21,300 bases of DNA, from positions 1 to 21,300 of IMG/VR virus record IMGVR_UViG_3300025141_015222; one strand, written 5' to 3'. The first letter of the stretch is position 1, and the number at the start of each line of letters is the position of its first letter. Origin of the DNA: a virus. Shown in pieces: positions 1 to 14,804 of this stretch. A model generated the notes under the pieces. It was not told where the DNA came from. It did not search any database and saw only the letters and a list, made by a program, of their open reading frames with translations. The position numbers and the translations under genes were made by a program.

Positions 1-806
1 TCTAAACACTTGGATTTAACTCCAACAAACCTATTAATATCATAGACGATTTTTGATCTATCAAAACCAACAATATCACAAATATGCTGGGCATACTTTC
101 TTATTGGATATTCCTTGCCTCTTCCAATGTTAATAACTTCATTATCCCTGTGCAGGACCTCCAGAAGAATCGTCACGAAATCATCCACATGAATCAATTC
201 CCTCTTCTGCTTACCGTCTCCCCACAGAATTACTTCTTTACCTTCGTGCTTACCGTTACATATTTTTCGGACCAAATCGAAGATAAAATGATTATCAGTT
301 TCTTCGTACCCTGGACCGTACAAAGTTGATGGGATAGCATATAGCCATTTCATGTCGAACTGTTTTTCTAAAGCCCTTAGTCCTGTCAGAAGCATCTTCT
401 TTGTTTGAGCATAATAATATAAATCCTCTTCGGGAATTCCTCCCTCATAATAAATCTCTGCTAGGGGAAGGTTAGGATCATAGCTACAACTAGTACCCAT
501 ACACACCATTTTAGCCTGCGGATTTTCTTCTTTCCAATATCTAAGTATATTGGTATTAATTAGCTGATTTGTTATCCACTGAGTTCCTGAGTTCTTTACA
601 CACCAATCACCAGCCTTAGTATACGCAGCCAAGTGAAAGATGACATCAAAATGAATATTATTAAATATAGAAAGACTTTCGTAGAAGAAAAGATTTCCTT
701 TACTTGTATTAGACTGCCATATATCATGGCCCTGCTCTTTTAATTTTCGAACAAGTACTTTCCCTAGGAATCCAGTAGCACCGGTAATTAATACCTTCAT
801 TTTCAT
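1..806 (-). CDS. NAD-dependent epimerase/dehydratase, GDP-L-fucose synthase-like (3' end beyond window)
   Basis: Short-chain dehydrogenase of the extended NDP-sugar type. Translating the minus strand from the ATG at 806 gives an open frame to the window edge (about 268 residues), so the last few tens of residues lie outside. Seen: N-terminal Rossmann motif GATGFLG (residues 8-14), a segment HLAAYTKAGDW, and the catalytic YxxxK pair as YAQTK. The visible end, with a GVKSKCLD-like stretch, resembles the C-terminal part of GDP-4-keto-6-deoxymannose epimerase/reductase (Fcl/WcaG). Such enzymes make GDP-fucose or related deoxysugars in the cytosol. The start directly follows the upstream stop (TAAATG) with AGGG about 7 nt before it; a second ATG two codons on (798-800) is also possible. 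Fold confident; exact substrate not. Confidence 0.85.
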   Translation of the reverse strand, partial: MKMKVLITGATGFLGKVLVRKLKEQGHDIWQSNTSKGNLFFYESLSIFNNIHFDVIFHLAAYTKAGDWCVKNSGTQWITNQLINTNILRYWKEENPQAKMVCMGTSCSYDPNLPLAEIYYEGGIPEEDLYYYAQTKKMLLTGLRALEKQFDMKWLYAIPSTLYGPGYEETDNHFIFDLVRKICNGKHEGKEVILWGDGKQKRELIHVDDFVTILLEVLHRDNEVINIGRGKEYPIRKYAQHICDIVGFDRSKIVYDINRFVGVKSKCL

Positions 807-810
807 TTAA
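796..810. repeat. 15-nt direct repeat, copy 1 (gene junction)
   Basis: Plus-strand TTCATTTTCATTTAA. It covers the end of the methyltransferase gene (TAA) and the first codons (Met-Lys-Met) of the epimerase gene. An exact second copy is 837 nt away, at the start of the methyltransferase gene. Confidence 0.85.
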
Positions 811-1643
811 AACCCTAAGAGTATTATTGTCGAACCAGTAAGTCTATGCGCCCATGATTCCATATTGGTGATAGATACGCCAGGATTGTCGAGTATATAG
901 GATTTATCAATAACAAAAAAATAATTTATTATATCTTTCATCATAGGGGGTAGATCAGAGGGCACGCTGCCTTTTCGCATTTTTTGCATGAAGCTGGCAC
1001 CGAGCTGGAGCAGATGACCTTGGCTATGAAACAAATCACTATTCTCGTTTAAATATTCCCTCCATTCATCGAAACTCTTAACATTACAATGAATATGTTT
1101 TTCATCATCTGACTCGTATTCCCAAGTGGCTGCTGTTCCGAAAAACAATGTATCTTCATGAGCATGCGCTCCAAGATTTTTTAAAAACTGTCTAAAATTT
1201 GATTCTTGAATATGTTCGATATGTTCAATACAAACAATTAAATCAAATTTTATAATATTTTCATTTTCATCAACTAATTTATATTCTTGATCTGTTCTTA
1301 CGACAAAATGCGTATCTTTATCGATAAAAGGACTATTAATCGTTTCTTGGTTACCATCCAAAGTAAACACAATCAAATTAGGATCATATTTTCTAAAAAA
1401 ATATGCCAAACTACCAGCGCCGGATCCCACATCTAAAATATATTTTAAATTACTAGCAACACCAGCATTATAACGAACTTTTCGATATTGATCAATTAAA
1501 AAAAGCGCCATCATTTCCATCATTTGATGTACTGAATCTTGTTCACTGAAACGTATTCCATCATTATGACTATATCCTGGCACAAATTCATCAATTTCAA
1601 TTCCAATATTTTCAACTATTGTTTGTCTATATTTCATTTTCAT
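807..1643 (-). CDS. SAM-dependent methyltransferase (class I)
   Basis: 278-residue class I methyltransferase. Motif I is clear as LDVGSGAGS (residues 70-78), followed by an acidic strand end near FTLDGN and a motif-IV-like strand FDLIVCIEHIEHI. There is no membrane segment. The acceptor cannot be read from sequence; in this setting O-methylation of a sugar residue or nucleotide-sugar is the natural guess. Its start abuts the stop of the upstream C-methyltransferase gene (TTAAATG) with AGGGG just upstream. A 15-nt sequence spanning its start is repeated exactly at the start of the next gene, so this gene sits between perfect direct repeats. Methyltransferase call firm; specificity unknown. Confidence 0.85.
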   Translation of the reverse strand: MKMKYRQTIVENIGIEIDEFVPGYSHNDGIRFSEQDSVHQMMEMMALFLIDQYRKVRYNAGVASNLKYILDVGSGAGSLAYFFRKYDPNLIVFTLDGNQETINSPFIDKDTHFVVRTDQEYKLVDENENIIKFDLIVCIEHIEHIQESNFRQFLKNLGAHAHEDTLFFGTAATWEYESDDEKHIHCNVKSFDEWREYLNENSDLFHSQGHLLQLGASFMQKMRKGSVPSDLPPMMKDIINYFFVIDKSYILDNPGVSITNMESWAHRLTGSTIILLGF

Positions 1644-1647
1644 TTAA
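1633..1647. repeat. 15-nt direct repeat, copy 2 (gene junction)
   Basis: Exact copy of the sequence at 796-810, covering the stop-adjacent bases and first codons (Met-Lys-Met) of the methyltransferase gene. The spacing between copies, 837 nt, equals one methyltransferase gene including its stop codon. Confidence 0.85.
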
Positions 1648-2858
1648 GCCCCTACAATCTCAACATGCGGAAATGGAACTATAAATTTTACCCCCTTATC
1701 TAAAAGATCTTTATTCTTTTCTATTATCTCATCAGCGAAATTATGAGATAATAGAAGATAGTAATCAGGATAATCTGAAGGATCCTCCTTTTCAATAGGA
1801 ATGTTAGACTTCGGCAGTAAGTACCCTGTTTTTAATTCGTTGATCTCAACAGCCTTGTCTATCAAAGTCTCATCTATGCCTTCAAAATTTAACAGGGTAT
1901 TTCCCTTTGCTGGGGCACCATATGCATAGATCTTATTATTATTCTTCTTGAGAACCCGCAGGAAATTCCTAAGCCTAAAACGTTGCTTCCTGATAACATC
2001 AGCGAAACGAAGAAAACTAGACAAATTATATTCTCGATCTGCCTCCAAGGTTTCGCTGAATCGATGAGTCTTCTCATGTTCTCTTCCGTTACATACCTTC
2101 ACCATTAAGGATCCGCTGTGAATAGGAGAGTGATATGCATCAAAGACATTTAACCCATAAGGACTCAATAAATTCATTAAACTTTGGAGAGTATAGTAAC
2201 AGAGATGTTCGTGATAAATCATATCATAACTCTGGTTCCTTACAAGTTCTCCAGCGTACATGCACTGGACAGTAAGAACACCATCCTTCTTCAAAAGATA
2301 CTTTATACCCTCAATAACACTATGGAGTTCTTCTAAGTGAAAAAACACTCCCGCCGCGTTTATCAGACTAACAGATCTTCTAGAAAAATGTTTCTTCGCC
2401 GTATCCAAATTAAAAAATTCATTTATTGTATGAATACCATTTTCTCTAGAAATCTCAGCGATATTAAATGCGGACTCCACGTTTACAACCTGCGATACTC
2501 CAGCCTTCTTATACTGAAGCAGTTGAGTACCATCATTTCCTCCAATATCAACAATCAGATCCGAGTATCCCAACTCAAACTCATGGATATTTTCTTTAGC
2601 AAAAGCCCAGAAATGATCTCGCAAAGTCTTAGTCATTCCAGACAGGTAACCGTGTTCAGAAAACATAACTTCTTTGGGGACGGTATAATTCAATTGAAGA
2701 AGGGTACAATCTTTGCAGTACGCTAAATTCAAAGGATATACCTCTGCGCTATCCCTTTCAGTCAAAGGTATAAGATCATTACACCATGGTTGCTGGCCTA
2801 AATCCAATACGCCAATTAGATCACTTTTTCCACACGAACGACATTCTCTAGCTTCCAC
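1644..2858 (-). CDS. NDP-hexose C-methyltransferase, TylCIII-like
   Basis: 404 residues with the three-part layout of deoxysugar C-methyltransferases (TylCIII/EvaC family). An N-terminal zinc-binding domain has Cys pairs CRSC (6-9) and CKDC (48-51). A SAM-binding core carries DIGGNDG (104-110). A YHEHLCYYT segment (215-223) matches the family catalytic region, and the C-terminal domain has YGAPAKGN (313-320). These enzymes add a methyl group to C3 (or C5) of a 4-keto-deoxyhexose nucleotide, giving branched-chain sugars; the substrate could come from the RmlB-like dehydratase in this cluster. The start is GTG at 2858, because the frame needs the first Cys pair; GGAGG lies 6 nt before it. The first 43 nt overlap the end of the upstream glycosyltransferase gene. 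Confidence 0.88.
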   Translation of the reverse strand: MEARECRSCGKSDLIGVLDLGQQPWCNDLIPLTERDSAEVYPLNLAYCKDCTLLQLNYTVPKEVMFSEHGYLSGMTKTLRDHFWAFAKENIHEFELGYSDLIVDIGGNDGTQLLQYKKAGVSQVVNVESAFNIAEISRENGIHTINEFFNLDTAKKHFSRRSVSLINAAGVFFHLEELHSVIEGIKYLLKKDGVLTVQCMYAGELVRNQSYDMIYHEHLCYYTLQSLMNLLSPYGLNVFDAYHSPIHSGSLMVKVCNGREHEKTHRFSETLEADREYNLSSFLRFADVIRKQRFRLRNFLRVLKKNNNKIYAYGAPAKGNTLLNFEGIDETLIDKAVEINELKTGYLLPKSNIPIEKEDPSDYPDYYLLLSHNFADEIIEKNKDLLDKGVKFIVPFPHVEIVGA

Positions 2859-3793
2859 TCTGCGCCTCCATCAATTATTTCCATGAGATTCTCAGTGGTA
2901 TATCTCAATGCCTTATTATAGGCATTTTTAATTATTTTTTCATAACTGGACCAATTATTTAAAATTTTATCTATCTGCTCCTTTAACTCATCGTTTGAGT
3001 CAAAGTACACAAAATCATCCCCAGGAGTGTAGTAAGTTTCAATAATATTCCAAGGATCTCGTTTAACTAAATTTAATGTCCTAGAAGCAGCAGCTTCGTT
3101 ACATCTAGATTTAAATTGAGGAATAATGCCCAAATCATCTATATGTTTCCAAGCTTCATTCTTCTCCCAACCCTCTCTACTCTTAATATGCTGCCTATCC
3201 CTTTCATTTCTTACTTCAAAAGTATTATAACAAATAGAAATTTTACATTTGGAAATTAATTCAAACTTTTCTTTATTAGTTAAGTTTAAATTAGTGGCAT
3301 GTACTAAATTATCAGCAGTAAGAGAGTTTATGCCTTGAGTTTGAGAGGCATACCTATAGTTAAATTTCTTCATAGTCATTAGCATATTAACATACTTTTC
3401 TCCATGCAAACCACCATGATAAATTACATCATATTCTTTATCCGTAATAGGAGGAAAATCTCTTTTATTAATAGGATAAAATATATTTCTATATTTATTT
3501 TGTCCTAGCATAATATTATGCCACTGATTTGAATAAGGGCATATTGACCATACCTCATCAAAAGGAGTTTCCCAAGGTTTAGGTGTTGGCCCACAAAACT
3601 CTGTTGGAGAGGTCACATTTAAATAAATATTTCTTTTATGCTTTTTTAAATATTCATAAGGGGTTTTCTGCTCAAGAAAGGTGTATCCTAAATACAAAGC
3701 ATCTTCTGAATTATTTTTTGAAAATTCAGATAAGTTAAAATAATGAGTATTAGTCCCAGGTATCTCCATGTTTAGCTTTTCATAAACTTTCAT
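2816..3793 (-). CDS. glycosyltransferase, GT-B/CgeB-like
   Basis: 325 residues. The C-terminal half looks like the CgeB-type GT-B domain: a strand with ISICYNTFEVRNE (about 186-198), then KSRCNEAAASRTL (about 229-241), where the acidic/Glu region binds the donor nucleotide in this group, and a tail with the DDFVYFDSNDEL pattern common in these proteins. The N-terminal half is only weakly similar to known domains. Predicted role is transfer of a sugar from a nucleotide donor; donor and acceptor are unknown. No membrane segment. The ATG overlaps the upstream stop by one base (TAATG), which suggests translational coupling; the 3' end overlaps the next gene by 43 nt. The gene and its upstream neighbour are visibly richer in A+T than most of the window. 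Confidence 0.72.
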   Translation of the reverse strand: MKVYEKLNMEIPGTNTHYFNLSEFSKNNSEDALYLGYTFLEQKTPYEYLKKHKRNIYLNVTSPTEFCGPTPKPWETPFDEVWSICPYSNQWHNIMLGQNKYRNIFYPINKRDFPPITDKEYDVIYHGGLHGEKYVNMLMTMKKFNYRYASQTQGINSLTADNLVHATNLNLTNKEKFELISKCKISICYNTFEVRNERDRQHIKSREGWEKNEAWKHIDDLGIIPQFKSRCNEAAASRTLNLVKRDPWNIIETYYTPGDDFVYFDSNDELKEQIDKILNNWSSYEKIIKNAYNKALRYTTENLMEIIDGGAEWKLENVVRVEKVI

Positions 3794-5172
3794 TAATGTA
3801 TACCTCTTGTATTGGGATTAATGCCATACTCTTCTAACATACTCCCTAACTCTGCGGGATATTCTGAGAGATTCCACTTTCCTTTTACAATAGCACTAGC
3901 AATAAAAGGAAGCACAGAAGAATCATAGTGATGTATTCCTCTTTTTGGTTCCCCAGCGTAGTAAAAAACACCTTTAGTATTTAATTTCCTGCATGTATCA
4001 TTTCCTACTAACTCCATTTGAGGACCAGCTTTCTTAAATGCCATCCCAGACTTAGGCGAGTGTTCATGAATTACCTCTAAATCTCTAGTTCTCCATAAAG
4101 AACTCATCTGGCTAAAGAACCACATATTCTGATTATTCATCAAATATATATTAGGGGCTATTTCAGGCTCTTCATACTCAATACCTCTAAACAATCTAAC
4201 AAAAGATAGATTCTCATTTTTTTTCAAATAATCAAAACCGTACTGTAATTTATCTTTATCTACATCAGAATAAAAGATGTAATCTTCATTAAAGTTAATA
4301 CAAAACTCTTCACTTACTTGTTTAATACCTTTCAAAAACTGAGTTCTATAATCATCATCCTCTGAGTATTTTAATACATGACAATAAGACGGAAGCCCCT
4401 CTTTAATATCAGATATCACATACACCTTTTTATTAGGAAAATGTTTCTTAAGACGATCAAAAAACATAGGCCAAACATCAGAACAAGATGAGTGAGTATT
4501 GACCACTAATGCTATATCATCCATAATGTACCCAGGATTGTTAATTATTCTTAGTGCTACTTTTTGATCAGACGCGGGAAAAACCTTTTCGGGATTAATA
4601 ATGTACTCTCCATTCATTCCAATAAATTCATATTCTATATTATTTTCGTTAACCCACTCATAAAAAGCTTTAAATTCATGATTTCTATAATTAGGATAAT
4701 TTATAAACTCATCAAAAACAATAATACAATTATTCTTAATCCTACAACCTAAATAATCAAAGATATCTTTTGTTGAAGTGTAAAGATCACAATCAACATG
4801 TATAAAGGTTATAGGATCTTTAATTTTAAAAGTAGATAATGTTTCTGAAAAAAGCCCCTCCACTAAAGTAACATTATCTTTAACTTTAGGAGTATTACTA
4901 TTAGATAAAGAAGAATCTTTTGCAAAATCTGTATAAGAATAATGCCCTTTTTGTACAATACTCTCACCTAAATCCCAAATATCAGGCAACCCTTCAAAAG
5001 AATCAAAACCGTATACTGTCCCTTCAGTATAGTCAGCAATCTTATTAATAGTATTACCCAAAAATACTCCAAACTCTAACCAAGCCCCCTTTTCAACTAA
5101 GTTATTTTCCAAAACAAATAAAAGGGGATTTTTTTTTAAATCTATAAGTTCCTTAAGTAAATGTTCTTTCAT
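3793..5172 (-). CDS. bifunctional TylF-type methyltransferase / glycosyltransferase-like fusion
   Basis: 459 residues from the ATG at 5172 (GGGA 5 nt upstream); a GTG at 5193 would add 7 residues but has no ribosome site. Numbering from the GTG, the N-terminal 215 or so residues are a TylF/MycF-like O-methyltransferase: WLEFGVFLGNT (38-48), GFDSFEG (62-68), HVDCDLYTS (132-140), VFDEF (159-163). The remaining 240 or so residues start a new alpha/beta domain (IALVVNTHSS), contain a DxD-like YSDVDKD, and read as a GT-A-like glycosyltransferase, which is less certain. A fusion would couple sugar transfer with methylation of the same residue. The radical SAM gene lies just upstream and a GT-B gene overlaps the stop by 1 nt. 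Confidence 0.72.
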   Translation of the reverse strand: MKEHLLKELIDLKKNPLLFVLENNLVEKGAWLEFGVFLGNTINKIADYTEGTVYGFDSFEGLPDIWDLGESIVQKGHYSYTDFAKDSSLSNSNTPKVKDNVTLVEGLFSETLSTFKIKDPITFIHVDCDLYTSTKDIFDYLGCRIKNNCIIVFDEFINYPNYRNHEFKAFYEWVNENNIEYEFIGMNGEYIINPEKVFPASDQKVALRIINNPGYIMDDIALVVNTHSSCSDVWPMFFDRLKKHFPNKKVYVISDIKEGLPSYCHVLKYSEDDDYRTQFLKGIKQVSEEFCINFNEDYIFYSDVDKDKLQYGFDYLKKNENLSFVRLFRGIEYEEPEIAPNIYLMNNQNMWFFSQMSSLWRTRDLEVIHEHSPKSGMAFKKAGPQMELVGNDTCRKLNTKGVFYYAGEPKRGIHHYDSSVLPFIASAIVKGKWNLSEYPAELGSMLEEYGINPNTRGIH

Positions 5173-5189
5173 AGCATTCCCATCTTTTA

Positions 5190-6299
5190 TCACAGAAAAT
5201 TAACATCCTCTGTTTCTTCAGGGTGTTTTAGAAAATCAAGCAGTTTATTAGGCTCTGATAACTTGCAACACATCTGACATTTTTCTTTATAATTCAGGGC
5301 TCGTACAGCCTTAATCGCTTCCTGCCTCTGTTCTGACACCCAAATATCTTTAAAGGAGGATTCATTAACATTGCCAAACGTGAGACTAGGATCATTAGGA
5401 TGGTAGGTACAAACTTTTACTTCACCTGTTGCGGCTAGAATAGGCTCAAAGAAGTGACCCTCACAACTTCTAAAGGAAAAGGCTGTGCCATCTCTTAAAT
5501 CCTTTCGTTTATCGTCGCTAAGATTAATTTTGGTCATAAGCTCTGGGGGAAGGTTATCTAAATAATCCCACACCTCTGTATTAATCTCCGCTGTGCCCGT
5601 CTCTTTATACGAAGTCTCAGCCTCCTTATAGTACCTGGGTAGGATAGGCCTAAACTGTAAGTAAGAAATACCCTCGTATTCATTAACCCAATCTACCAAC
5701 TCTTTAGCATGATCGAGGGTGATGTTAGGACCAACATTACAATTGATACCTACTCGACAACCGTACTTGACAAGCTCGGCAACATTCTTTCTAATAATTT
5801 TAACCCCATCTACCTCTTTCCATTCTTTATATTTAACATCATCCAATGTATCTAAAGAAATTCTAATCCACTGGAAGCTCTCGCCAATAAGTTTACAATA
5901 CCGTGGCTTGAATACCCCATTAGTCATCATACCTAATTGCAGTCCCGCATCTTTAGCAGCTTTCACCGCTTCTTCAAAATGGGGGTAAAAGGTAGGCTCT
6001 CCTTGCCCTGCGTAGGTAACAGCTTTTCCCCCCATCTCAGCAAAGTCTCTCAAAAACCTTTTCAGACTTTCGATCTCTAGATGCTTTCCAAACTTATTAT
6101 CTCTACCCTGCTCAGTAATACACCAAAAACAAGCCATGTTACACTTATCGGTTAAACCTACCTCCATAAAGATAGGACACTCAGTATCTCCCTTATTTAA
6201 ATACTGGTGTAACTTATCAAAATGAAGCACTATTTTAGCTTGAGAAGCAAAAGGATTTCTCCCTGAGAAAGAAGTATAGTTGCTATTAAACTTCGTCAT
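5190..6299 (-). CDS. radical SAM enzyme with twitch/SPASM-like C-terminal cluster
   Basis: 369 residues. The radical SAM cluster motif CxxxCxxC is present (C53, C57, C60), followed by a glycine motif GQGEP (98-102) for SAM binding. The C-terminal region has C279-x12-G-x4-C297 and C331-x2-C334-C335, matching the first part of the SPASM pattern (CX9-15GX4C) and suggesting one auxiliary iron-sulfur cluster (twitch). Family members include peptide-modifying enzymes and sugar or aminocyclitol enzymes such as the dehydrogenase BtrN. Between an RmlB-like dehydratase and glycosyltransferases, a sugar oxidation, epimerisation or deamination is plausible but not shown. The ATG is 1 nt after the upstream stop, with AGGAAAG before it; the 3' end overlaps the GTG alternative start of the next gene. 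Confidence 0.9.
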   Translation of the reverse strand: MTKFNSNYTSFSGRNPFASQAKIVLHFDKLHQYLNKGDTECPIFMEVGLTDKCNMACFWCITEQGRDNKFGKHLEIESLKRFLRDFAEMGGKAVTYAGQGEPTFYPHFEEAVKAAKDAGLQLGMMTNGVFKPRYCKLIGESFQWIRISLDTLDDVKYKEWKEVDGVKIIRKNVAELVKYGCRVGINCNVGPNITLDHAKELVDWVNEYEGISYLQFRPILPRYYKEAETSYKETGTAEINTEVWDYLDNLPPELMTKINLSDDKRKDLRDGTAFSFRSCEGHFFEPILAATGEVKVCTYHPNDPSLTFGNVNESSFKDIWVSEQRQEAIKAVRALNYKEKCQMCCKLSEPNKLLDFLKHPEETEDVNFL

Positions 6300-6300
6300 C

Positions 6301-7236
6301 TTATCTTTCCTCTAAATCTTTAACAATATTTTCAATACAATTATCTAAACTCCATTTCGATTTCCAACCCATTTTAAGCAACTTTTCATTAGATAAACTA
6401 TATCTTTTATCATGCCCTGGTCGAGCCGTATGAAAATCAACAAATTCAACAGCATCCATTGGCATTTCGTGCCCCTTTGTATAAAAGTAAATAAGCTTTG
6501 CTAAAGAATAAACATCCATTTCTTCTCCAGCGATGTGATAAATCTCTTTTTGGTGAGCCTCATGTAATAAAAAGAACACCGCACTTGCAACATCTTTAGC
6601 ATAGATCCAATGCCTTGAAGCAACATTCTCTGGTGAGTTACCGTGTAGAACAATTTTCTTTCCATCTTTTATACTCTTAAAGGTTTTTGGAATAAACTTA
6701 TTAAAGCTTTCCCCTTCACCTATTACGTTCATACACCGGATAGTAAAAATTGGCATATTAAAAGAGTGGGCAAACGAGTAAGCTAATAATTCAGCCCCTG
6801 CTTTTGTTGCCGCATATGGGTTAGATGGTTTGCGTAAATCGTCTTCTTTGAAGTATACACCCTCTGGGGCTGCCCCCATTACTTCGTCACTGGAGAACAC
6901 ACAAACTTTCGTTTTCGGGTGATTTTTTTTAATCCATTCTAAAAGATTCGCTGTGCCTAAGAAATTAGAGTTAACAAAAGGTATACAATTTTTTAAACTG
7001 TCATCAACATAAGTTTCAGAAGCCATATGTATAATGTAATCTAGGTTTCCTACATCTAGATCAATCTCTTGTGATAAGTCCACCCTTATACACTTTACTC
7101 TATCTGATTTTGGAAGTCTTTCTGTGTTATTCCTATAGAGTGCAACAACTTCCCAGTCCGTAGTATCTAATACATATTGTAAAAAATGATGTCCTATAAG
7201 TCCGTTACCACCTGTAATTAATATCTTTTTATTCAT
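6301..7236 (-). CDS. NDP-glucose 4,6-dehydratase-like (RmlB family) SDR
   Basis: 311 residues, extended short-chain dehydrogenase. Rossmann motif GGNGLIG (9-15). The catalytic triad region is SSDEVMG (115-121), where RmlB enzymes usually have STDEVYG, so Asp and Glu are kept and Thr is replaced by Ser; then YAATK (Y131, K135). The C-terminal RPGHDKRYS (272-280) is typical of RmlB-type 4,6-dehydratases. The expected product is an NDP-4-keto-6-deoxyhexose, the branch-point substrate for the aminotransferase-like, C-methyltransferase and perhaps radical SAM proteins nearby. It is somewhat shorter than the roughly 350 residues usual for RmlB. Reduction or epimerisation cannot be excluded. It starts 16 nt after the preceding glycosyltransferase gene. 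Confidence 0.85.
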   Translation of the reverse strand: MNKKILITGGNGLIGHHFLQYVLDTTDWEVVALYRNNTERLPKSDRVKCIRVDLSQEIDLDVGNLDYIIHMASETYVDDSLKNCIPFVNSNFLGTANLLEWIKKNHPKTKVCVFSSDEVMGAAPEGVYFKEDDLRKPSNPYAATKAGAELLAYSFAHSFNMPIFTIRCMNVIGEGESFNKFIPKTFKSIKDGKKIVLHGNSPENVASRHWIYAKDVASAVFFLLHEAHQKEIYHIAGEEMDVYSLAKLIYFYTKGHEMPMDAVEFVDFHTARPGHDKRYSLSNEKLLKMGWKSKWSLDNCIENIVKDLEER

Positions 7237-7252
7237 AACCTACAATCCTTTA

Positions 7253-8053
7253 TTACTTAAATCCACGGAAGTATCTCCTTATGAATTTTTGATCCTCCGT
7301 TATATGCTTAAATACTAATTCTGACAACGAAGTGTTAAAATCTAACAGTTCAGGCCAATGAAGATCTAAACCAACCCCATACTCCTGGGCTAACTCTTCC
7401 CTACCCCACACATCTATAGAGTCGTAGACAGGACGATTGCCTGATCCATGATGATAAATAATATCATCATAAACTCCAAAGTTTAAAGGGTGAAGATCAT
7501 AAGAATTAGTCCTCAGAAGCCTCTTCCATTTAATATTTCTCTGATCAAAAAATTGTTTGAGAAGTACCCCCGCACACTCGGCTCCTTGGGAGGGATCTAA
7601 ATCCCATGAAAGGTTATTTTCTTTCCAAAATTTAGCCGTAGTAACAAAGAAACAAGGATGAGGATAGGGCTTTTGATCGTCGCGTAAGAGAGGTTCAATA
7701 TTTTCTTCTCGACTAATAGCCACTACTGCGTATTCTTGAAGGTACTTTCTAATTTGAAGATTCCACCCCTTCTTAAATAGTAACGCATCAGGATCTAAAA
7801 ATACCAATAAATCATCATCTTCAAAATTTTCTCTCTCAATAATTCCAAACAAAGCATTAAGCTTGTCTGAGTGTACATTACGAACTTGTAAAGCATAATG
7901 AGCATAATTAGAAGAAGTTAAATCAGGCGCGGTTGCCATATCAGTAAGACCACAACAAACTCTGTACTTCTCAGTAGTATTAGCCTTTAAATATGTGGAT
8001 TGCAACTTAATCCATTTTGGAGTCTCATGATGATTAGTTATGATATGAATCAT
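7253..8053 (-). CDS. glycosyltransferase-like protein, GT-A type
   Basis: 266 residues. The N-terminal strand-turn (MIHIITNHHETPKW) and the DDDLLVFLDPDALLF segment (79-93), with a DxD-type metal-binding motif DPD (87-89), suggest a GT-A fold glycosyltransferase. A His-rich segment IIYHHGSGN later in the protein could supply the C-terminal metal ligand seen in many GT-A enzymes. I cannot assign a numbered family. No membrane segment, so probably cytosolic. The ATG follows the upstream methyltransferase stop by 2 nt, implying a single mRNA and coupled translation. Confidence 0.68.
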   Translation of the reverse strand: MIHIITNHHETPKWIKLQSTYLKANTTEKYRVCCGLTDMATAPDLTSSNYAHYALQVRNVHSDKLNALFGIIERENFEDDDLLVFLDPDALLFKKGWNLQIRKYLQEYAVVAISREENIEPLLRDDQKPYPHPCFFVTTAKFWKENNLSWDLDPSQGAECAGVLLKQFFDQRNIKWKRLLRTNSYDLHPLNFGVYDDIIYHHGSGNRPVYDSIDVWGREELAQEYGVGLDLHWPELLDFNTSLSELVFKHITEDQKFIRRYFRGFK

Positions 8054-8055
8054 TG

Positions 8056-8658
8056 CTATTTTTTAATAAAAACCCATGATGGAGCGTCTGCATCTCCCTT
8101 TTGAGGTGATGTTTCTGTTATTTTGAATTCCAGACCACTTTCCTCAGCAAATTCATGTACAGCCTGGACCGTTCCAGGATTAGTATCATTATAATCATGC
8201 CCTGAAAGGATTCCTCCAGATTTAAGCTTGGGGAACCAATCATGAATATCTTGCTTCACACTCTCATAATCATGCAACCCATCAATATATACAAAATCCA
8301 CATCAGAGGAAAGGAAGGGGAGGACTCTGTTGGAATAAGACCTTAATAGAGTCCATTTAGTAGGGGGAAACTTACTTAATATTGTAATAGATGCAATATA
8401 CCTTGCTTCCTGAGATAAATAGCCATCATTTCCCATTGCAAAAGGATTATAATCTTCTGCATTATAATCTACATCTGCGTGACTGCTAGTTTCACACCAA
8501 GGATCAATCCCTGTAATATGCATACTAGTAGTTGCCACCATATGGGCAGTAAAGGCTCCTTGCCACACCCCAATTTCCACTCCCTTTGTAAAAGTTTTAG
8601 GTAAACTAACTACAAGATCATACCTATCATTAAAATTTAAATCGTCAAAAGTTAGCAT
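8056..8658 (-). CDS. SAM-dependent methyltransferase (class I, Methyltransf_24-like)
   Basis: 200 residues, close to a minimal class I methyltransferase core. Seen: motif I GVEIGVWQG (26-34), the acidic end of strand 2 in ITGIDPW, the segment FVYIDGLHDYESV typical of Methyltransf_24 proteins, and GGILSGHDYND near the catalytic region. The IDG..H.Y and GHDY pattern is common in methyltransferases encoded inside glycan clusters, often of unknown acceptor. It lies 3 nt after the aminotransferase-like gene, with a GGAGAAAT ribosome site overlapping that gene's end. N- or O-methylation of a sugar is plausible; the acceptor is not readable. Confidence 0.85.
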   Translation of the reverse strand: MLTFDDLNFNDRYDLVVSLPKTFTKGVEIGVWQGAFTAHMVATTSMHITGIDPWCETSSHADVDYNAEDYNPFAMGNDGYLSQEARYIASITILSKFPPTKWTLLRSYSNRVLPFLSSDVDFVYIDGLHDYESVKQDIHDWFPKLKSGGILSGHDYNDTNPGTVQAVHEFAEESGLEFKITETSPQKGDADAPSWVFIKK

Positions 8659-8661
8659 AGT

Positions 8662-9273
8662 TTATTTCTCCTTAAAAATTGTAAATTCCGTTAAATCTCT
8701 ATATCCCTGATCTTCTCCAAGATCATCTACAAACTCTGGGTAGTTTTGCATTAAAGCAAGGCCGTGCGCTGCCTGCTGGGGAGTCATATACATGTTCCAT
8801 CCTAACATATCAACATTGTCATCCCGATAATTTACTTCACCTCTCCCCTCGTATCTCGCCTTCCTGAACCACTTCACAGCTTCGTAGTTATCGGTGAGAA
8901 TCATTCCTCCTTTTCCAAGGGGTAATAACTTTTTAATGTGAAAAGATAAACACATGTAGGTTCCAGGGAGATACATTTTAGAGGTAAACCTTTTAGCAGA
9001 GTCATAGATTGGATAAGGCATTAATGGGTATATGCCGCTCCATTCCTTATCTTCAAATGCAACTGTACCTCCTGAATGGATAACAGACATTGGAACAGAA
9101 AGATATGTTCTTTTGGGTAGAGTTATTTCCCCCACACTCAAATACTTGCAGCACAAAAACAATGCATTGGTACAGCTGTCCACGGAAACAGCAAAAGGTG
9201 CGCCTGTATACAGAGCTACCTCCTCCTCAAACATCTTAACTATCTCGTATGGGTTGTTCTTAATTACCTTCAT
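8662..9273 (-). CDS. half-length DegT/DnrJ/EryC1/StrS aminotransferase-like protein
   Basis: 203 residues, against about 370 for normal sugar aminotransferases of this family. The large-domain landmarks are present: SVDSCTNAL near the PLP phosphate site, YDSAKRF (90-96) where the family has an Asp contacting the cofactor ring, and SFHIKKLLPLGKGG (110-123), aligning with SFxxxKxLxxGEGG so that K115 would be the PLP lysine. GEGG has become GKGG. The reading frame stops after about 200 residues, so the C-terminal small domain is missing. It may be a compact enzyme, need a partner, or be degenerate. The following gene encodes a GNAT acetyltransferase, a pairing typical of N-acetylamino-sugar synthesis. 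Overlaps that upstream gene by 4 nt (ATGA). Confidence 0.8.
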   Translation of the reverse strand: MKVIKNNPYEIVKMFEEEVALYTGAPFAVSVDSCTNALFLCCKYLSVGEITLPKRTYLSVPMSVIHSGGTVAFEDKEWSGIYPLMPYPIYDSAKRFTSKMYLPGTYMCLSFHIKKLLPLGKGGMILTDNYEAVKWFRKARYEGRGEVNYRDDNVDMLGWNMYMTPQQAAHGLALMQNYPEFVDDLGEDQGYRDLTEFTIFKEK

Positions 9274-9671
9274 ATCAACTCGTATGGCACACCACAGGAT
9301 TCAAACAATTTGATACTCGCAAGATTATCTTTTTTTATTCTACCCTTCGCACTTGGAAATATCTTAACAATCTCACTAAGCATAAATTTCCCTACACCTT
9401 TACCCTGAAAATCTGGATGGGTACAAATTCTGATATCATCATCTATGACCCCAACGTAGCCACAATGTTTGCCGTATAATAGACATATTCTATAGCAATC
9501 CTTATATTTTTCCATGTAAATTTGTTGTTCTTTAATTGTGATATTAACATCTTCGATAAATCCCGATTTGACTCTATCATCCATTCTCAACTTACGAATA
9601 AATTCGTATCCAGTGAACGAGCGAGATATAGGATGTAATACAGGTTTACCAGACATCAACTTTAGTTCCAT
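9270..9671 (-). CDS. GNAT-family N-acetyltransferase
   Basis: 133-residue single-domain GNAT acetyltransferase. The acetyl-CoA binding motif is seen as HPDFQGKGVGKFM (about 88-100; the QxxGxG/A core), followed by NLASIKLFESCG, the usual helix that ends a GNAT domain. Because it overlaps the aminotransferase-like gene by 4 nt, the natural reading is acetylation of an amino group placed on a nucleotide sugar, as in PseH- or FdtC-type steps, though those comparisons are functional, not demonstrated homology. The start ATG at 9671 lies within the end of the upstream gene (26-nt overlap); an in-frame ATG five codons later is possible. Neither has an obvious ribosome site. Confidence 0.82.
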   Translation of the reverse strand: MELKLMSGKPVLHPISRSFTGYEFIRKLRMDDRVKSGFIEDVNITIKEQQIYMEKYKDCYRICLLYGKHCGYVGVIDDDIRICTHPDFQGKGVGKFMLSEIVKIFPSAKGRIKKDNLASIKLFESCGVPYELI

Positions 9672-10461
9672 ACTGGTTTTCCATTCCGAGAACCCAATGT
9701 TGAAGATAAGCTCTACTATATTTCCAACCGTCTAGCCCCAACCAAGGACTCAAGCTACTTCCGATATCGATATAAGTGTTTTTATCACAATCGTCATAGC
9801 ACTGGTGTACGATATAGTTACTTAAGGCTGATGCAGAACAAAGAATGACATGATCTTTTATGTTATTATCCTTAATGTAACTCTTAATTTCTTCTACAAG
9901 ATGATAATCATTTACGATACAATTACTTCCTATCCTAAAATCTTTTACTATATCAAAATCATTAAAAAGAAGCTTTGATAGATCTGCCTTCTTATTTACC
10001 ACAAAAATTATGGGCCTCTTCTTTAGCAGCGGAACAAACTCGTTGAGAAATCTAGGATAATTATTGTTAATAAAAACATTAGAAAAAGTTAGATGCTCTC
10101 TATCCCCATGTCCGTACAAATTTAACTGCCATTTGAAATCCTTTTCTCCAACATCAACCTTCCCACTAACCCCCTTGAAATAATTTTTCTTTCTGAATTG
10201 GAATGCATCAATCAAACGATCCCTATGAAACCCATGCTCTTCAGGGTCAAAATTCTTTTGCTCTTCTTCTGGATAAATCCCCTGACCCTTCTCATCTCCA
10301 GTTATATAATAATCCTTAGCTAGGACTACTTTCTTTCCCTGTAACATAAAAAGCTCCCCATCAGAGAACCGTGAGAAAGCGAAGTTTTCTCCTTTCTTAA
10401 GCTTGTTCAGAAGCTTGTTGAACTCTCCTGAAAAGTTCTTTTGCAATTCTTTCTGCGGCAT
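9646..10461 (-). CDS. probable GT-D fold (DUF1792-like) glycosyltransferase
   Basis: About 271 residues from the ATG at 10461, chosen because GGAG lies exactly 6 nt upstream; a TTG at 10473 would add four residues. The N-terminal motif SRFSDGEL resembles the FGDGE signature with the DxE metal-binding motif of GT-D (DUF1792) glycosyltransferases, which transfer glucose in bacterial adhesin glycosylation. Further on, the strand HVILCSASALSNYIVH and the C-terminal YIDIGSSLSPWLG look like the nucleotide-binding and terminal parts of such a domain. No membrane segment. It overlaps the upstream epimerase gene by 65 nt and the downstream GNAT gene by 26 nt. Family assignment rests mainly on one motif, so moderate confidence. 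Confidence 0.6.
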   Translation of the reverse strand: MPQKELQKNFSGEFNKLLNKLKKGENFAFSRFSDGELFMLQGKKVVLAKDYYITGDEKGQGIYPEEEQKNFDPEEHGFHRDRLIDAFQFRKKNYFKGVSGKVDVGEKDFKWQLNLYGHGDREHLTFSNVFINNNYPRFLNEFVPLLKKRPIIFVVNKKADLSKLLFNDFDIVKDFRIGSNCIVNDYHLVEEIKSYIKDNNIKDHVILCSASALSNYIVHQCYDDCDKNTYIDIGSSLSPWLGLDGWKYSRAYLQHWVLGMENQYGTKVDVW

Positions 10462-11428
10462 CACCATCTCCAAAAATACATTTTCCCTCAGGGGGATCTA
10501 CCAAAGCGGCCTCAAACGCTGAACCAAGATCTTTTGGCTCCTTTGCCATTATATTGGTATCACAAGGCCTCTCCGTCACCACTCTACATACGATACAATT
10601 CTTTCTAAAAAAGTTGCATTCTTCCTGCAACCCTCCGCTGTCTGTTATGACCAACTTACACTTTCTTACCCGTTCAAGCATTTCAGAATATGGCAACGGA
10701 TGGATAGGTCTCAAAGTTCTAGCTGTCCAGCCAGATGAATCAACAGAGGGATGACCTATGTAAGTAAATTTATATTTCGGATATTTGCGCTTGAGCGTCT
10801 TAATTTCCTTTAAATAATCTGGTATCTTATAGCGATTTTCTCTTCTGTGTAAAGTTATAAGAACTTCGTTACCGTCTTCAGGCTCTAGCCCTACCAAGTT
10901 ATCAATAGATGTATTTCCTGTAACTCTTATCTTATGTTCAGGAATCTTTTCATACCTAAGAAGATTATTTCGTTCTCTTAATGTGGGGCAAAAATGCAAA
11001 CTCGCCATAGAGGAAATCATTTTCCTGAAGGCCTCCTCTGGGTTAGGGTTGTCCAGGTCAAATGATCTCATTCCAGCCTCTACATGATACACTGGGATAC
11101 TCCTGCTATACGCCAGAAGACTTAATCCGTATGCTGTTGCCGTGTCTCCCTGCACTACCATTATATGCTCATTCTCCCAACCCTCTGGGATCTTGTCGCA
11201 GGATATTATAGATTTTATAATATTTTGTATCCGAGATAGGTTTTGGTTCTCTTTTACAGGAATGTGTATGTAACGATGATATTCAAAATCAAACCTAACA
11301 TCTTCTACAAGATCCTTATGCTGACCTACGCATACAAGGATATGCAAAATTCCATTATCCTTTAAATAGGAAATTAATGGCTTAAGCTTTATTAGCTCTG
11401 GCCTTGTCCCGAATCCCACCAATATCAT
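10397..11428 (-). CDS. wecB: UDP-N-acetylglucosamine 2-epimerase (non-hydrolysing, WecB-type)
   Basis: 343 residues covering the full GT-B-like fold of WecB. Hallmarks: GTRPE (7-11), QGDT (93-96, D95), VEAGMRS (116-122, E117), PEEAFRK with E131, LHRREN (183-188), DSGGLQEE (263-270) and a C-terminal GDGDAAERIA; the catalytic acids correspond to those of the E. coli enzyme. One difference is TERPCD, where the family usually has TERPE. It converts UDP-GlcNAc to UDP-ManNAc in the cytosol. The window has no UDP-ManNAc dehydrogenase, so the product may be used directly or handled by host or unseen genes. The ATG lies inside the upstream glycosyltransferase gene (47-nt overlap). Confidence 0.93.
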   Translation of the reverse strand: MILVGFGTRPELIKLKPLISYLKDNGILHILVCVGQHKDLVEDVRFDFEYHRYIHIPVKENQNLSRIQNIIKSIISCDKIPEGWENEHIMVVQGDTATAYGLSLLAYSRSIPVYHVEAGMRSFDLDNPNPEEAFRKMISSMASLHFCPTLRERNNLLRYEKIPEHKIRVTGNTSIDNLVGLEPEDGNEVLITLHRRENRYKIPDYLKEIKTLKRKYPKYKFTYIGHPSVDSSGWTARTLRPIHPLPYSEMLERVRKCKLVITDSGGLQEECNFFRKNCIVCRVVTERPCDTNIMAKEPKDLGSAFEAALVDPPEGKCIFGDGDAAERIAKELFRRVQQASEQA

Positions 11429-12179
11429 TAACTGTTTTCCAACCTTGATCTAAAAAATGTTCTATTATCTCATCTCTCTGATGATAGAATGTGGGAATAT
11501 CAATCAACGAACCATTGGACGATGCCTTTTTATCGTTACCGTATTCCCACGGCTTCAAAGAACTACTCAACTCTTTATTATAGTGTGGAGGGCAGTAAGT
11601 TCTGACTCCCCCAAACATTTTTGCCTGAGCAGAAAACTGTATATCCTCACCATTGCCGAATGTGTAGGGTTCAGCTTCCCAAAGATAATTTAAAGTTTTT
11701 CTTCTAAAAAACCATGTGTGCCCTACGAGATCGACCTCTTCAATATTTCTATTCTCAGAAGGCCACCCTTCTCTCTCATGTTGAACATAAAAGGGACTTA
11801 GCAGTTTAACTCCTGCACCTCCAAGAATACAGGTTCCTTTTTCTGTCATGGTGTCCCTACAATTTTTAAACCACATTTTTCCTGGGATAGTGTCATCATC
11901 AAAAACTGCGAGATACTCTGTATCTGCTAGAAGACCTAGAGAAAATCTACCATGGTATTTAAAATTCCTAGAAGAATCTATGACAACATCAGCCCCCACA
12001 CCTTTGATACGCTCATCCATTTCATTATTTAAATGCTTATCATATTCAGTCACCGCATCAATACGATTTCTCCATATCCATATCTCCCGTGGATCAAGGG
12101 TTTGGGACCTAATCGCGTCTATCTGCTCTTTTAAATATTCAGGCCTAGCATAACAATTTATAATAACAGTGATATCCAT
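11382..12179 (-). CDS. glycosyltransferase family 2-like (GT-A)
   Basis: 265 residues. The start is a classic GT-A strand (ITVIINCYARPEYLKEQI), followed by a DDD motif in AVFDDDTIPG (94-96) that would bind the metal and donor diphosphate. The segment NGEDIQFSAQAKMFGG matches the GT2 region with the ED catalytic-base motif. Predicted to transfer a sugar from a nucleotide donor; the substrate is unknown and no membrane helices are present, unlike many processive GT2 enzymes. The ATG at 12179 has an AGGA-containing leader; the gene overlaps its upstream neighbour by 22 nt and the epimerase gene downstream by 47 nt. Confidence 0.83.
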   Translation of the reverse strand: MDITVIINCYARPEYLKEQIDAIRSQTLDPREIWIWRNRIDAVTEYDKHLNNEMDERIKGVGADVVIDSSRNFKYHGRFSLGLLADTEYLAVFDDDTIPGKMWFKNCRDTMTEKGTCILGGAGVKLLSPFYVQHEREGWPSENRNIEEVDLVGHTWFFRRKTLNYLWEAEPYTFGNGEDIQFSAQAKMFGGVRTYCPPHYNKELSSSLKPWEYGNDKKASSNGSLIDIPTFYHQRDEIIEHFLDQGWKTVNDIGGIRDKARANKA

Positions 12180-12964
12180 GATTCTAATATCCTTTCATTG
12201 TCCCAGTAGTCCGCATGAGACTCTGCGGAGTCTAAACCATTATATTTCGTTCCCGTCATCTGACACTCAGCCTTTATATAATTAAAGGTCTCTCTCTGAG
12301 AAGAATGGTAAACTTCTCCCACAGAATCATACATCTTCTGCTTATCATCCTCATACCCCACTGCTTCAACTCCAGGCTGCGTAAGGACAGATTTAAACTT
12401 TCTCAAATATTCAATATCAGTGGGGTTTCCATACACCAGCACTTTTTTATAACCATCTTTCAATGCGCGTTCTACAGATGTGTGAACCTGCTTGTGCGGA
12501 TCTATGCTTCCAATAACTCCTGCGACTTCAGGATTCTTTCCAGTATCTTCCAGTTCAGATAGGACATTAGGTATGACTTTATATGGATAGTTTGTAGCAT
12601 GCCATCTCCTCTGTGAGTTTGAAACATAATGTATCAAGTCATACTGATCTAACTTCAAATTCTTAAGAGGGAATAAGTTAGTCTCATGGCAACTGAGAAT
12701 ATGCTTTCTTACATTCTTTTCCATCATCTCATGCTCCGCAGGAACTTGGCAAAAATGAGATATAAGGATGCACTCAGTGTCATCACTAAAAGGATCAGAA
12801 TCTAGAGTAGACGCTTGACACTTATCTAAATGCCAATTATGAGGGCCATAAAAAGTACAGTCTATACCATTAAGATTAAATAGATTGCACAAATTAACAA
12901 ACGCTGTAGCCGAACCGCCGGGATTACTCCAACTACTAATTATTTTGACTTTTAGTTTTTTCAA
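12158..12964 (-). CDS. glycosyltransferase, GT-B (GT4-like)
   Basis: 268 residues, compact GT-B glycosyltransferase. The N-terminal glycine-rich turn WSNPGGSATAFVNL fits the acceptor-domain start. In the donor domain, VIGSIDPHKQVHTSV (150-164) opens the second Rossmann unit, and E225 and E233 form the ExxxxxxxE pair typical of GT4 donor binding (in RETFNYIKAE). It is shorter than the usual 350-400 residues, so parts of the N-terminal domain are reduced. The start is a TTG at 12964 with AAAGG just upstream; no in-frame ATG fits the fold. It overlaps the previous gene by 29 nt and the next by 22 nt. Confidence 0.75.
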   Translation of the reverse strand: MKKLKVKIISSWSNPGGSATAFVNLCNLFNLNGIDCTFYGPHNWHLDKCQASTLDSDPFSDDTECILISHFCQVPAEHEMMEKNVRKHILSCHETNLFPLKNLKLDQYDLIHYVSNSQRRWHATNYPYKVIPNVLSELEDTGKNPEVAGVIGSIDPHKQVHTSVERALKDGYKKVLVYGNPTDIEYLRKFKSVLTQPGVEAVGYEDDKQKMYDSVGEVYHSSQRETFNYIKAECQMTGTKYNGLDSAESHADYWDNERILESWISLLL

Positions 12965-14159
12965 TAGCCTTTAACTCGTCTTCATAACGACGATTTTCCC
13001 TAGGGTCAAACTTTAAAGTTTTGAAGCACTCTTCATATAATGTTAACCTATTCATAACAACATTATTAATATCAAAATACTGTTCTGTAATTCTATGAAG
13101 ATTATTACCCATCTCTATTCTATGCTTTTTCTCTTTTATAACTTTAGCTAAAACCCGTACCCATTGTGTTTTAGTTGCTTTAGGAGGAAGCAAATATCCC
13201 GTCTCGCCGTTCTTTATTGTTTCATCATAGCAACCTACATCAGAAGCAATTAAAGGTATACGATATCTCCCAGCTTCTGCCACTTTAATCTCAGACTTTG
13301 AATCATTAAAATCATTCATCTGCAATGGAGCTATTGCAATGTCCATATTAGCATACATCACCCCATACACTTCGGGAGGCAATGCTTGATGAATTTGCCA
13401 ATTTTTTTGACCTTTGAACCCACGGAGCAATTCCCTCTTATATCCCTTCCACACATCCTGCTGCCAATCGTCTTTATTTCCGTCTTCTATAGGAGGCTGT
13501 CCGTAGAAATCCCACTGAATATTCTCTGCTCCTACCTTTTGATTAACTAGATGTGGGACACCAGCAAACTCTTTAACATCCACATCATGATGAATACCAC
13601 CCGCCCATCCGATCTTTATCTTTTTTGTTTTCGCTCTTTCATGATTCCAACATGGTAGTTCATAATCAATAGCATTCTTCACGACAGCCAAAACATTCCC
13701 AACAAACGGTTTAACCCTCTCAGCGAACTTTCTCTGTGTCACAGTAACTAAATGACTGTTAGCGTACATAAATTTAGTTATGTCACCCAGCCCCTTTTCC
13801 TTATAAACATCAGAAAGTCTGTGCTCCTTGTAAAGGCCAGTAAGGAGGTCATCAGTATCCATCTGTACAAACTTGCCAAACTCTATGGCTTTTCCCACCG
13901 CTCTAGCAGCATAGTTACCTCCGAAGTTGCTAATGTTGTTGACCACAATAACATCAGCCCACTTCATGTTCTCAAACTTCCAGTTAGGTTGCCACTGCCC
14001 AGAGGAAGTGTCTATTCCAAGAGGGTTATCGTCTATTCTGAGTTCTACCTCGTCTGGATATAACTCAGCCAATTTTGTGAACGGCATATTCAAACGATAA
14101 TAGGCACAACCGCCATCGTTTGCCTTAAACCCCAGTATTCTTAATTTCTTCTTTTCCAC
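12936..14159 (-). CDS. glycosyltransferase, GT-B (GT1/GT4-like), first gene of the glycan cluster
   Basis: 407 residues, full-size GT-B glycosyltransferase. N-terminal LGFKANDGGCAYYRLNMP resembles the glycine-rich entry loop; the donor domain begins at KIGWAGGIHH (182-191), and EIKVAEAGRYRIPLIAS (290-306) matches the acidic donor-ribose motif and the turn after it, followed by GETGYLLPP, the C-terminal loop common to GT4 enzymes. The start is GTG at 14159; no Shine-Dalgarno sequence precedes it, but a TATAAT hexamer ends only 5 nt upstream, so the message could be nearly leaderless. It is the first gene after the terminator and so likely heads the glycan operon. Confidence 0.85.
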   Translation of the reverse strand: MEKKKLRILGFKANDGGCAYYRLNMPFTKLAELYPDEVELRIDDNPLGIDTSSGQWQPNWKFENMKWADVIVVNNISNFGGNYAARAVGKAIEFGKFVQMDTDDLLTGLYKEHRLSDVYKEKGLGDITKFMYANSHLVTVTQRKFAERVKPFVGNVLAVVKNAIDYELPCWNHERAKTKKIKIGWAGGIHHDVDVKEFAGVPHLVNQKVGAENIQWDFYGQPPIEDGNKDDWQQDVWKGYKRELLRGFKGQKNWQIHQALPPEVYGVMYANMDIAIAPLQMNDFNDSKSEIKVAEAGRYRIPLIASDVGCYDETIKNGETGYLLPPKATKTQWVRVLAKVIKEKKHRIEMGNNLHRITEQYFDINNVVMNRLTLYEECFKTLKFDPRENRRYEDELKAIEKTKSQNN

Positions 14160-14232: not shown

Positions 14233-14802
14233 TCAGAAATCTTTATCTATAGTCTTGGCTTCTCTCTCTTCATCTTCGTAGACCACCTTTGTGCTCTCAG
14301 AGCTATGAGCCATACCAAGGGCTCTCCCAACATTCTTAGCCCCTTCCCTCAAATCCACGCTACCATTACCAGGAAGAATGGACTTAAAGGCATTAGCATA
14401 ATGCTTGCGCTTCCTCCTGAAGAGCAGAGCTAGCACAGCTTCTAAACCAAGCAAAGGAGGAAAAAACGTCCCACCTACTCGAAGTGCAGCTTGCGCTAAA
14501 CTTCCAACGGCCCCTAAATCCCAGTCATCTCCATCCAAGGAAATAGGAACAGCATTAGATCCAGGCTTAACACTTTCTCTTGGGGCTGCAACGATGACCT
14601 CGTCCTTCCAAGCTTCCCTATACTTCTCAGGGATCTTCTCTGTTGGAACAACAATAGCCGTATCCTCTTTCCCAGGGAGAATATTATCAGCGTTGGTAAC
14701 AACCAAGTCTTGCTGCTTTAAAAAGCTTCCAACACCCTCGCAACTTGCGAAAGATACAATAGGCACTAGTAGTGCCCCCATTATCCAATATTTAAATCTC
14801 AT
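14233..14802 (-). CDS. putative lipoprotein with one internal membrane segment, unknown function
   Basis: 189 residues from the ATG at 14802, which has AGGA 5 nt upstream; an ATG at 14808 (ATGA overlap with the SSB stop) lies too close to that site. The N-terminus is a signal sequence: basic MRFKYW, a hydrophobic core, then FASC, a near-lipobox with Cys at position 21. A second hydrophobic stretch, about residues 110-128 (GGTFFPPLLGLEAVLALLF), is followed by RRKRK, suggesting a cytoplasmic C-terminal tail of about 60 residues. The intervening region is polar. I recognise no family. Envelope roles such as lysis accessory or superinfection exclusion are possible guesses. It is the last gene before the terminator, in the SSB transcript. 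Confidence 0.75.
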   Translation of the reverse strand: MRFKYWIMGALLVPIVSFASCEGVGSFLKQQDLVVTNADNILPGKEDTAIVVPTEKIPEKYREAWKDEVIVAAPRESVKPGSNAVPISLDGDDWDLGAVGSLAQAALRVGGTFFPPLLGLEAVLALLFRRKRKHYANAFKSILPGNGSVDLREGAKNVGRALGMAHSSESTKVVYEDEEREAKTIDKDF

Positions 14803-14804
14803 AA

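Follow-up and report, generated by a model that had tools for sequence, protein, structure and literature searches.

The viral DNA fragment IMGVR_UViG_3300025141_015222 carries the part nearest to gp32 of an exchangeable glycan cassette, which belongs to an uncultured lineage of marine T4-like myoviruses. The whole record, classed as linear, is the 21,300-nucleotide stretch analyzed here (the window), i.e. a fragment ending inside the glycan island. This island comprises 16 minus-strand open reading frames (ORFs) over positions 3-14159, with short gaps or overlaps throughout and the first ORF cut by the window edge. An earlier note, made from the sequence alone, had described 16 co-directional genes beside a T4-like replication block, and all 16 ORFs and their neighbours were borne out. 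As far as sequence comparison goes, the locus, its boundaries, its diversity, the lack of export machinery and the replacement of whole cassettes are near certain. For two decades, glycan gene clusters have been reported from ocean phages, and there is no consensus on what they do; bacteria switch their surface sugars by comparable gene-set replacement.

A scan with g16, the last glycosyltransferase (GT) gene of the island, retrieved 45 viral contigs, which show the same order of replication genes wherever the neighbours are present (gp46, ribonucleotide reductase, helicase, gp32, g17), with the genes past g16 varying from contig to contig. The island of the long relative G001 stops at the RecA-family gene uvsX. 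A uvsX scan and further regions brought the contigs with both ends to 46, giving 44 distinct complete cassettes. The order of the locus is gp32, a lipoprotein gene, g16, the variable cassette, then in most cases genes for a zinc ribbon protein, MazG and cytidine deaminase, and finally uvsX. From g16 to uvsX, the distance is between 620 bp and 18,976 bp (median 10.6 kb), and the orientation is the same throughout. The 44 cassettes hold 601 ORFs in 243 families, including 147 singletons, with the rarefaction curve far from level; ORFs were called mechanically (≥70 amino acids), and both the family and the ORF counts include a few spurious ones. In the distant relative L052, gp32 and uvsX are separated by 448 bp with no GT gene between them, and G008 has kept g16 with nearly no cassette before uvsX (the 620-bp interval), so the locus likely forms a series from an empty site through the GT4 gene only to a loaded cassette.

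The 30-fold variation in cassette size would suit mobile or stuffer DNA, which fills the phage head and has no selected glycan function, as raised by Sullivan et al. for the lipopolysaccharide (LPS) clusters of cyanophages (PMC3037559). For the present locus we find this very hard to believe, given that the ORFs are open, overlapping and co-directional (141,499 amino acids encoded on one strand versus 2,295 on the other), that the subset g14-g13-g12-g11-g10 is conserved in the same order with 40-77% identity in several phages, and that catalytic residues are invariant in the g10 family.

As judged from the sequences, whole cassettes are exchanged between near-identical phages, because the flanks of contigs L120 and L121 are 99.4% identical (over 2,237 and 6,528 bases) while their contents are unrelated. 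Between the flanks (6.2 and 5.8 kb), the two contigs share no nucleotide similarity and differ in gene content. One cassette encodes GT2, GT9-like, short-chain dehydrogenase/reductase (SDR), C-methyltransferase-like and FkbM-like proteins (GT9 and FkbM assigned by reading), the other a full-length DegT protein (by reading), a hexapeptide transferase, a PhyH oxygenase, a methyltransferase and a GT2 protein. The L120 cassette recurs at 100% identity in three further contigs, and that of L121 was seen once. The break lies within the last codons of g16 on one side and just before mazG on the other, positions that would be expected of recombination in conserved flanks. Likewise, phages with 97-100% identical UvsX proteins have only 12-43% of cassette ORFs in common, and part of this overlap comes from the recurrent mazG and deaminase genes adjoining uvsX. 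The locus is readable in dozens of related phages, where it has a constant, presumably first, transferase and ranges from near-empty to fully loaded, and the pairs differing in little but the cassette offer a matched comparison of what phage sugar genes decorate and why they vary. Among the cassettes, that of G037 and G013 (L200:5612-16021) has an unusual gene set, which includes a PanB-like ketopantoate hydroxymethyltransferase (1e-102), a thiamine pyrophosphate enzyme, a B12-radical SAM protein, RmlC and a PfkB kinase and suggests a branched acyl or branched-sugar product.

The genes of the island in the window are as follows, all on the minus strand.

3..806, minus: g01, SDR, NDP-sugar (nucleoside diphosphate sugar) epimerase-reductase, edge-cut (PF01370, 1e-40)
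807..1643, minus: g02, class I methyltransferase (PF02353/PF13489, over cut-off)
1644..2858, minus: g03, methyltransferase of the NDP-sugar C-methyltransferase type, zinc-binding plus Methyltransf_14 (PF08484, 3e-35; PF08421, 5e-19)
2816..3793, minus: g04, glycosyltransferase, Glyco_trans_1_2 (PF13524, 5e-8)
3793..5193, minus: g05, fusion of a TylF-like methyltransferase (PF05711, 3e-13) and a C-terminal domain that is probably a GT
5190..6299, minus: g06, radical SAM/SPASM protein (PF04055, 5e-21; PF13186)
6301..7236, minus: g07, SDR resembling dTDP-glucose 4,6-dehydratase (PF01370, 1e-41; TIGR01181, 1e-57, below cut-off)
7253..8053, minus: g08, probable GT-A glycosyltransferase, by reading, with an acidic FLDPDA motif
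8056..8658, minus: g09, methyltransferase, Methyltransf_24 (PF13578, 3e-19)
8662..9273, minus: g10, short, putative DegT-type sugar aminotransferase with the large pyridoxal phosphate (PLP) domain only (PF01041, 6e-21)
9270..9671, minus: g11, GNAT acetyltransferase (PF13508/PF00583, over cut-off)
9646..10473, minus: g12, GT-D-like protein (PF22882, 20.9 bits, below the cut-off of 27)
10397..11428, minus: g13, WecB-like non-hydrolysing UDP-GlcNAc 2-epimerase (PF02350, 2e-57; TIGR00236, 190 bits against a cut-off of 210)
11382..12179, minus: g14, GT2 glycosyltransferase (PF00535, 4e-6)
12158..12964, minus: g15, GT-B (GT4-like) glycosyltransferase, from the AlphaFold model and fold alignment
12936..14159, minus: g16, constant GT4 glycosyltransferase and anchor of the locus, adjoining the gp32 region in relatives (PF00534, 4e-10)

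Over the Pfam gathering scores, the island thus contains two epimerase/SDR proteins, Epimerase_2 (WecB), radical SAM with SPASM, GNAT, DegT (203 amino acids) and four methyltransferase domains (g02, g03, the N-terminus of g05, and g09), in agreement with the inventory of the earlier note. Its count of seven GT-like proteins plus a fusion holds in part: g04, g14 and g16 are over the Pfam cut-off and g15 is added by its structural model, whereas g12 is sub-threshold and both g08 and the C-terminal half of g05 are assigned by reading. The latter half has no family match, but a separate protein in a related cassette is 38% identical to it, and the whole fusion protein found no relatives when used as a query against viral contigs. 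From these comparisons, the fusion appears rare, with both halves standing apart in other cassettes. No Pfam or PHROG match was obtained for g08, which has a 33% identical homologue in L169, and g12 is conserved in related cassettes, with no relatives found among sequenced phages. No Pfam match was found for g15 either; its model (pLDDT 90.5) aligns with the GT4 enzymes TarM (Z score 21.8) and BshA (21.5), and the gene is present directly after g16 in 22 of the 44 cassettes. For g01, the nearest curated NCBIfam model is GDP-fucose synthase, with a score below the cut-off.

Two cassettes, L169 and L183, are colinear with the window and reach uvsX. Homologues of g01 (65-66% identical) occupy the same place in both, and those of g03 are 69% identical. 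Past g01, both continue with a 134-137-residue protein, an SDR, a 389-392-residue protein combining a GT2 domain with tetratricopeptide repeats (TPR), a zinc ribbon protein, cytidine deaminase and uvsX, with MazG additionally present in L169.

The short DegT protein g10 and 17 aligned relatives form a family of 197-222 residues (18 of 18), in which the C-terminal small domain of full DegT/DnrJ/EryC1/StrS aminotransferases (about 370 residues in all) is missing. Lys115 of g10 is invariant in the 18 sequences and aligns with the PLP lysine of perosamine synthase, with the neighbouring motifs kept. In the structural model, 192 of 203 residues align with sugar aminotransferases of 360-400 residues (Z score 18.8), covering the large domain. 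Both lines of comparison indicate that g10 is a DegT-type putative aminotransferase reduced to its large domain. Short DegT proteins are also encoded by Flavobacterium phage immuto (42% identity) and Synechococcus phage S-SCSM2R (38%), in each case within a glycan island. As in the window, they stand among GTs, in S-SCSM2R with a radical SAM protein too; these are different phages and sites, with no matching g16 or g12. The island of the cultured cyanophage S-SCSM2R (L163:4589-19665) has five annotated GTs, short DegT, radical SAM and an amidinotransferase in one run, and this phage offers a culturable system in which to test them.

A hydropathy scan predicted no membrane segments in any of the 16 island proteins, as the earlier note had proposed, whereas the positive controls from E. 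coli K-12 gave six (O-antigen polymerase) and nine (flippase). None of the 601 cassette ORFs has four or more segments. Two records, G013 and QCKN01000003.1, hold one ~130-kb genome in circularly permuted form and provide a complete relative, which appears to be without flippase, polymerase or oligosaccharyltransferase, because none of its ORFs exceeds two predicted membrane segments. The initiating sugar-phosphate transferase family PF02397 was found in 0 of 18 relatives (9 of 14 controls were positive), WecA-type enzymes being covered by the membrane-segment scan only. A soluble set free of flippase, polymerase and priming transferase is also seen in the near-complete genomes G001 and G002. 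The absence noted for the window extends to the 44 cassettes, G001, G002 and the complete relative. Lipid-carrier genes just left of the window would have spoken for an ordinary surface polysaccharide, and there are none in the colinear continuations of L169 and L183 up to uvsX.

For the acceptor, we give an even chance to a protein, probably a virion one, that is glycosylated in the cytoplasm by an exchangeable cassette at a fixed locus. Here, soluble enzymes would produce nucleotide-activated amino, deoxy, and C- and O-methylated sugars, and the constant GT4 enzyme g16 (with g15 where present) would place the first sugar or sugars on an acceptor that all these phages share. Soluble transferases of the cassette itself would then extend and cap the glycan in the cytoplasm, as in flagellin glycosylation islands. 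The likeliest acceptor would be a phage structural protein, giving a virion with a cassette-specific glycan, and replacement of cassettes by recombination in the two conserved flanks, gp32/g16 and mazG-uvsX, would result in something like a serotype switch. The full proposal, a serotype-like system in which a virion protein is tagged by the constant transferase and the interchangeable cassette determines the coat of the particle, one out of very many oligosaccharides, is a tentative one that we hold with less than even confidence. If true, phage populations would be structured by glycotype, as those of bacteria are by O-antigen. A glycan on the virion would mean a large, rapidly switching coat, which could affect adsorption, grazing or particle fate at sea.

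The sole positive hint for a protein acceptor is an analogy with the GT2-TPR protein of L169 and L183, whose GT domain matches GmaR (E value 3e-8) and which has TPR repeats. Flagellin receives N-acetylglucosamine from GmaR, whose TPR has been proposed as the flagellin-binding part (PMC9638930); FlmG, with the same TPR-GT design, binds flagellins through its TPR domain (PMC7591256). Several points weigh against protein glycosylation. The GmaR-like GT2-TPR protein is present in only 3 of the 44 cassettes (L168, L169 and L183), and it lies beyond the window edge, so that it is only predicted for this phage. The model of g15 fits the T4 DNA alpha-glucosyltransferase (Z score 18.4) nearly as well as the protein transferase GtfA (19.6); GT folds do not reveal the acceptor, and that of g15 would suit protein, DNA and small-molecule acceptors alike. 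Some cassettes contain genes of the LPS-core type (heptose-kinase-like PfkB, and by reading GT9-like and CMP-sugar-synthetase-like genes), and an RfaE-like nucleotidyltransferase is encoded elsewhere in the genome, outside the cassette. A scan of the long proteins of relatives for Ser/Thr-rich segments, made to find an acceptor, gave only two mild cases and is uninformative either way.

The same LPS-type genes (RfaE-like, PfkB, GT9-like and CMP-sugar-synthetase-like) are in line with another possibility, namely that the cassette remodels the LPS or lipooligosaccharide core of the host, or another cytoplasm-facing glycolipid precursor, during infection, and by altering the cell surface excludes competing phages. 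Soluble peripheral transferases would suffice for this, with the product exported by the host's own flippase, and the GT genes of pelagimyophages have been interpreted in this way (PMC7029224). The position among replication genes is also compatible with expression before the late proteins. However, with no priming transferase in 18 relatives and no flippase or polymerase in the complete relative, all membrane steps and a fitting acceptor must come from the host, and the nearest cassettes, with their GT2-TPR protein, speak for a protein acceptor. We regard host-glycolipid remodelling as a serious rival to protein glycosylation, if a less probable one.

Attachment of the sugars to the bases of phage DNA, with protection from restriction, was among the acceptors named in the earlier note. 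This proposal has been weakened and now seems improbable, even though the GT4 gene adjoins gp32 and other replication genes and the g15 model resembles the T4 enzyme. In phi92-like phages, distant relatives of g16 also lie beside primase/helicase and polymerase genes, and have been called a putative dTDP glycosylation machinery; these phages are, however, very sensitive to restriction (PMC8594841). The thymidylate-synthase/dCMP-hydroxymethylase family PF00303 is absent from eight relatives including G001, G002 and G013 (9 of 14 controls positive), and the C5-cytosine methyltransferase family PF00145 from seven phage records, with its controls positive. A search for the Tet/JBP family PF12851 gave no match anywhere and lacked a positive control, so it carries no weight. 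In addition, base modification would not easily account for an oligosaccharide set that is large and variable.

Glycan clusters in marine T4-like phages as such are already known (PMC3037559, PMC7029224), and the earlier suggestion of an unusual phage glycan system is to be narrowed, since LPS-type clusters had been reported there. What looks new is the locus structure together with cassette exchange: a single anchored locus free of membrane proteins, with dozens of alleles and direct evidence that whole cassettes are replaced, which none of the open-access papers that we searched describes. The T4-like cyanophages P-SSM2, S-SSM7 and S-SM2 have LPS gene clusters of untested function (PMC3037559). 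These are similarly large clusters of GTs and NDP-sugar enzymes in marine T4-like myoviruses, but they lie near hli03/phoH, whereas here one g16-uvsX locus with a constant GT4 gene occurs in 44 versions. Pelagimyophages, also marine and T4-like, carry GTs and sugar enzymes in a hypervariable region (mean 44.6 kb), where they are part of a host recognition cluster mixed with tail-fibre genes (PMC7029224); in contrast, the present locus is inside the replication block and, where annotated, encodes mostly glycan enzymes. The Far-T4 paper makes no mention of glycosyl, LPS or sugar genes (PMC4360716).

Among bacterial systems, the flagellin glycosylation islands (GmaR in Listeria, FlmG in Caulobacter, flm in Aeromonas) likewise work without a lipid carrier, through soluble sugar enzymes and cytoplasmic GTs, and share the GT-TPR architecture of the colinear relatives; unlike them, the phage locus has no flagellin, and GT-TPR proteins are present in just 3 of its 44 cassettes. 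O-antigen and capsule clusters such as E. coli K-12 rfb resemble it in their constant flanks, polymorphic middle, wholesale exchange and similar NDP-sugar enzymes, but the phage cassettes are devoid of wzx, wzy and a priming transferase. A further counterpart, in phages, is the "putative disaccharide synthase" of phi92-like phages (Justusliebigvirus), with distant GT4 relatives of g16 (about 24% identity) beside replication genes; this is a four-GT group that, unlike the locus described here, has no sugar-building cassette.

The T4-like backbone is represented by gp32, the DnaB-type helicase, ribonucleotide reductase and gp46 in the window and by uvsX in relatives, and the terminase of G001 is 33-34% identical to those of T4-like phages. 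The flank next to g16 contains the following genes.

14233..14808, minus: g17, conserved small protein with an N-terminal lipobox-like signal and one internal hydrophobic segment
14805..15527, minus: gp32-like single-strand binding protein (PF08804, 4e-16)
16410..17729, minus: gp41/DnaB-type helicase (PF03796, 9e-20)
18196..18558, minus: GroES-like co-chaperonin, Cpn10 (PF00166, 2e-16)
18531..20420, minus: class II ribonucleotide reductase NrdJ, NrdJ_Z (TIGR02504, 521 bits against a cut-off of 400)
20398..21300, minus: gp46/SbcC-type ATPase, cut by the window edge (PF13558/PF02463, over cut-off)

Constant in its place between gp32 and g16, the protein g17 is a candidate spanin-like or envelope protein and may have a link to the cassette. 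The record QCKN01000003.1 (L199-L205; 130,604 bp) is a complete T4-like phage genome, whose circularly permuted form is in IMG/VR, inside the single-cell assembly of Prochlorococcus sp. AG-409-P03, and two different phages of the lineage (L195 and L196) are found in one metagenome-assembled genome of Altibacter (NZTP01000040.1 and NZTP01000088.1). No host was assigned from either, since psbA and psbD are absent from the complete ~130-kb relative and bins can hold strays. In the G004 contig, positions 34225-36636 (L066:14225-16636) contain two plus-strand ORFs (299 and 497 amino acids) amid minus-strand replication genes.

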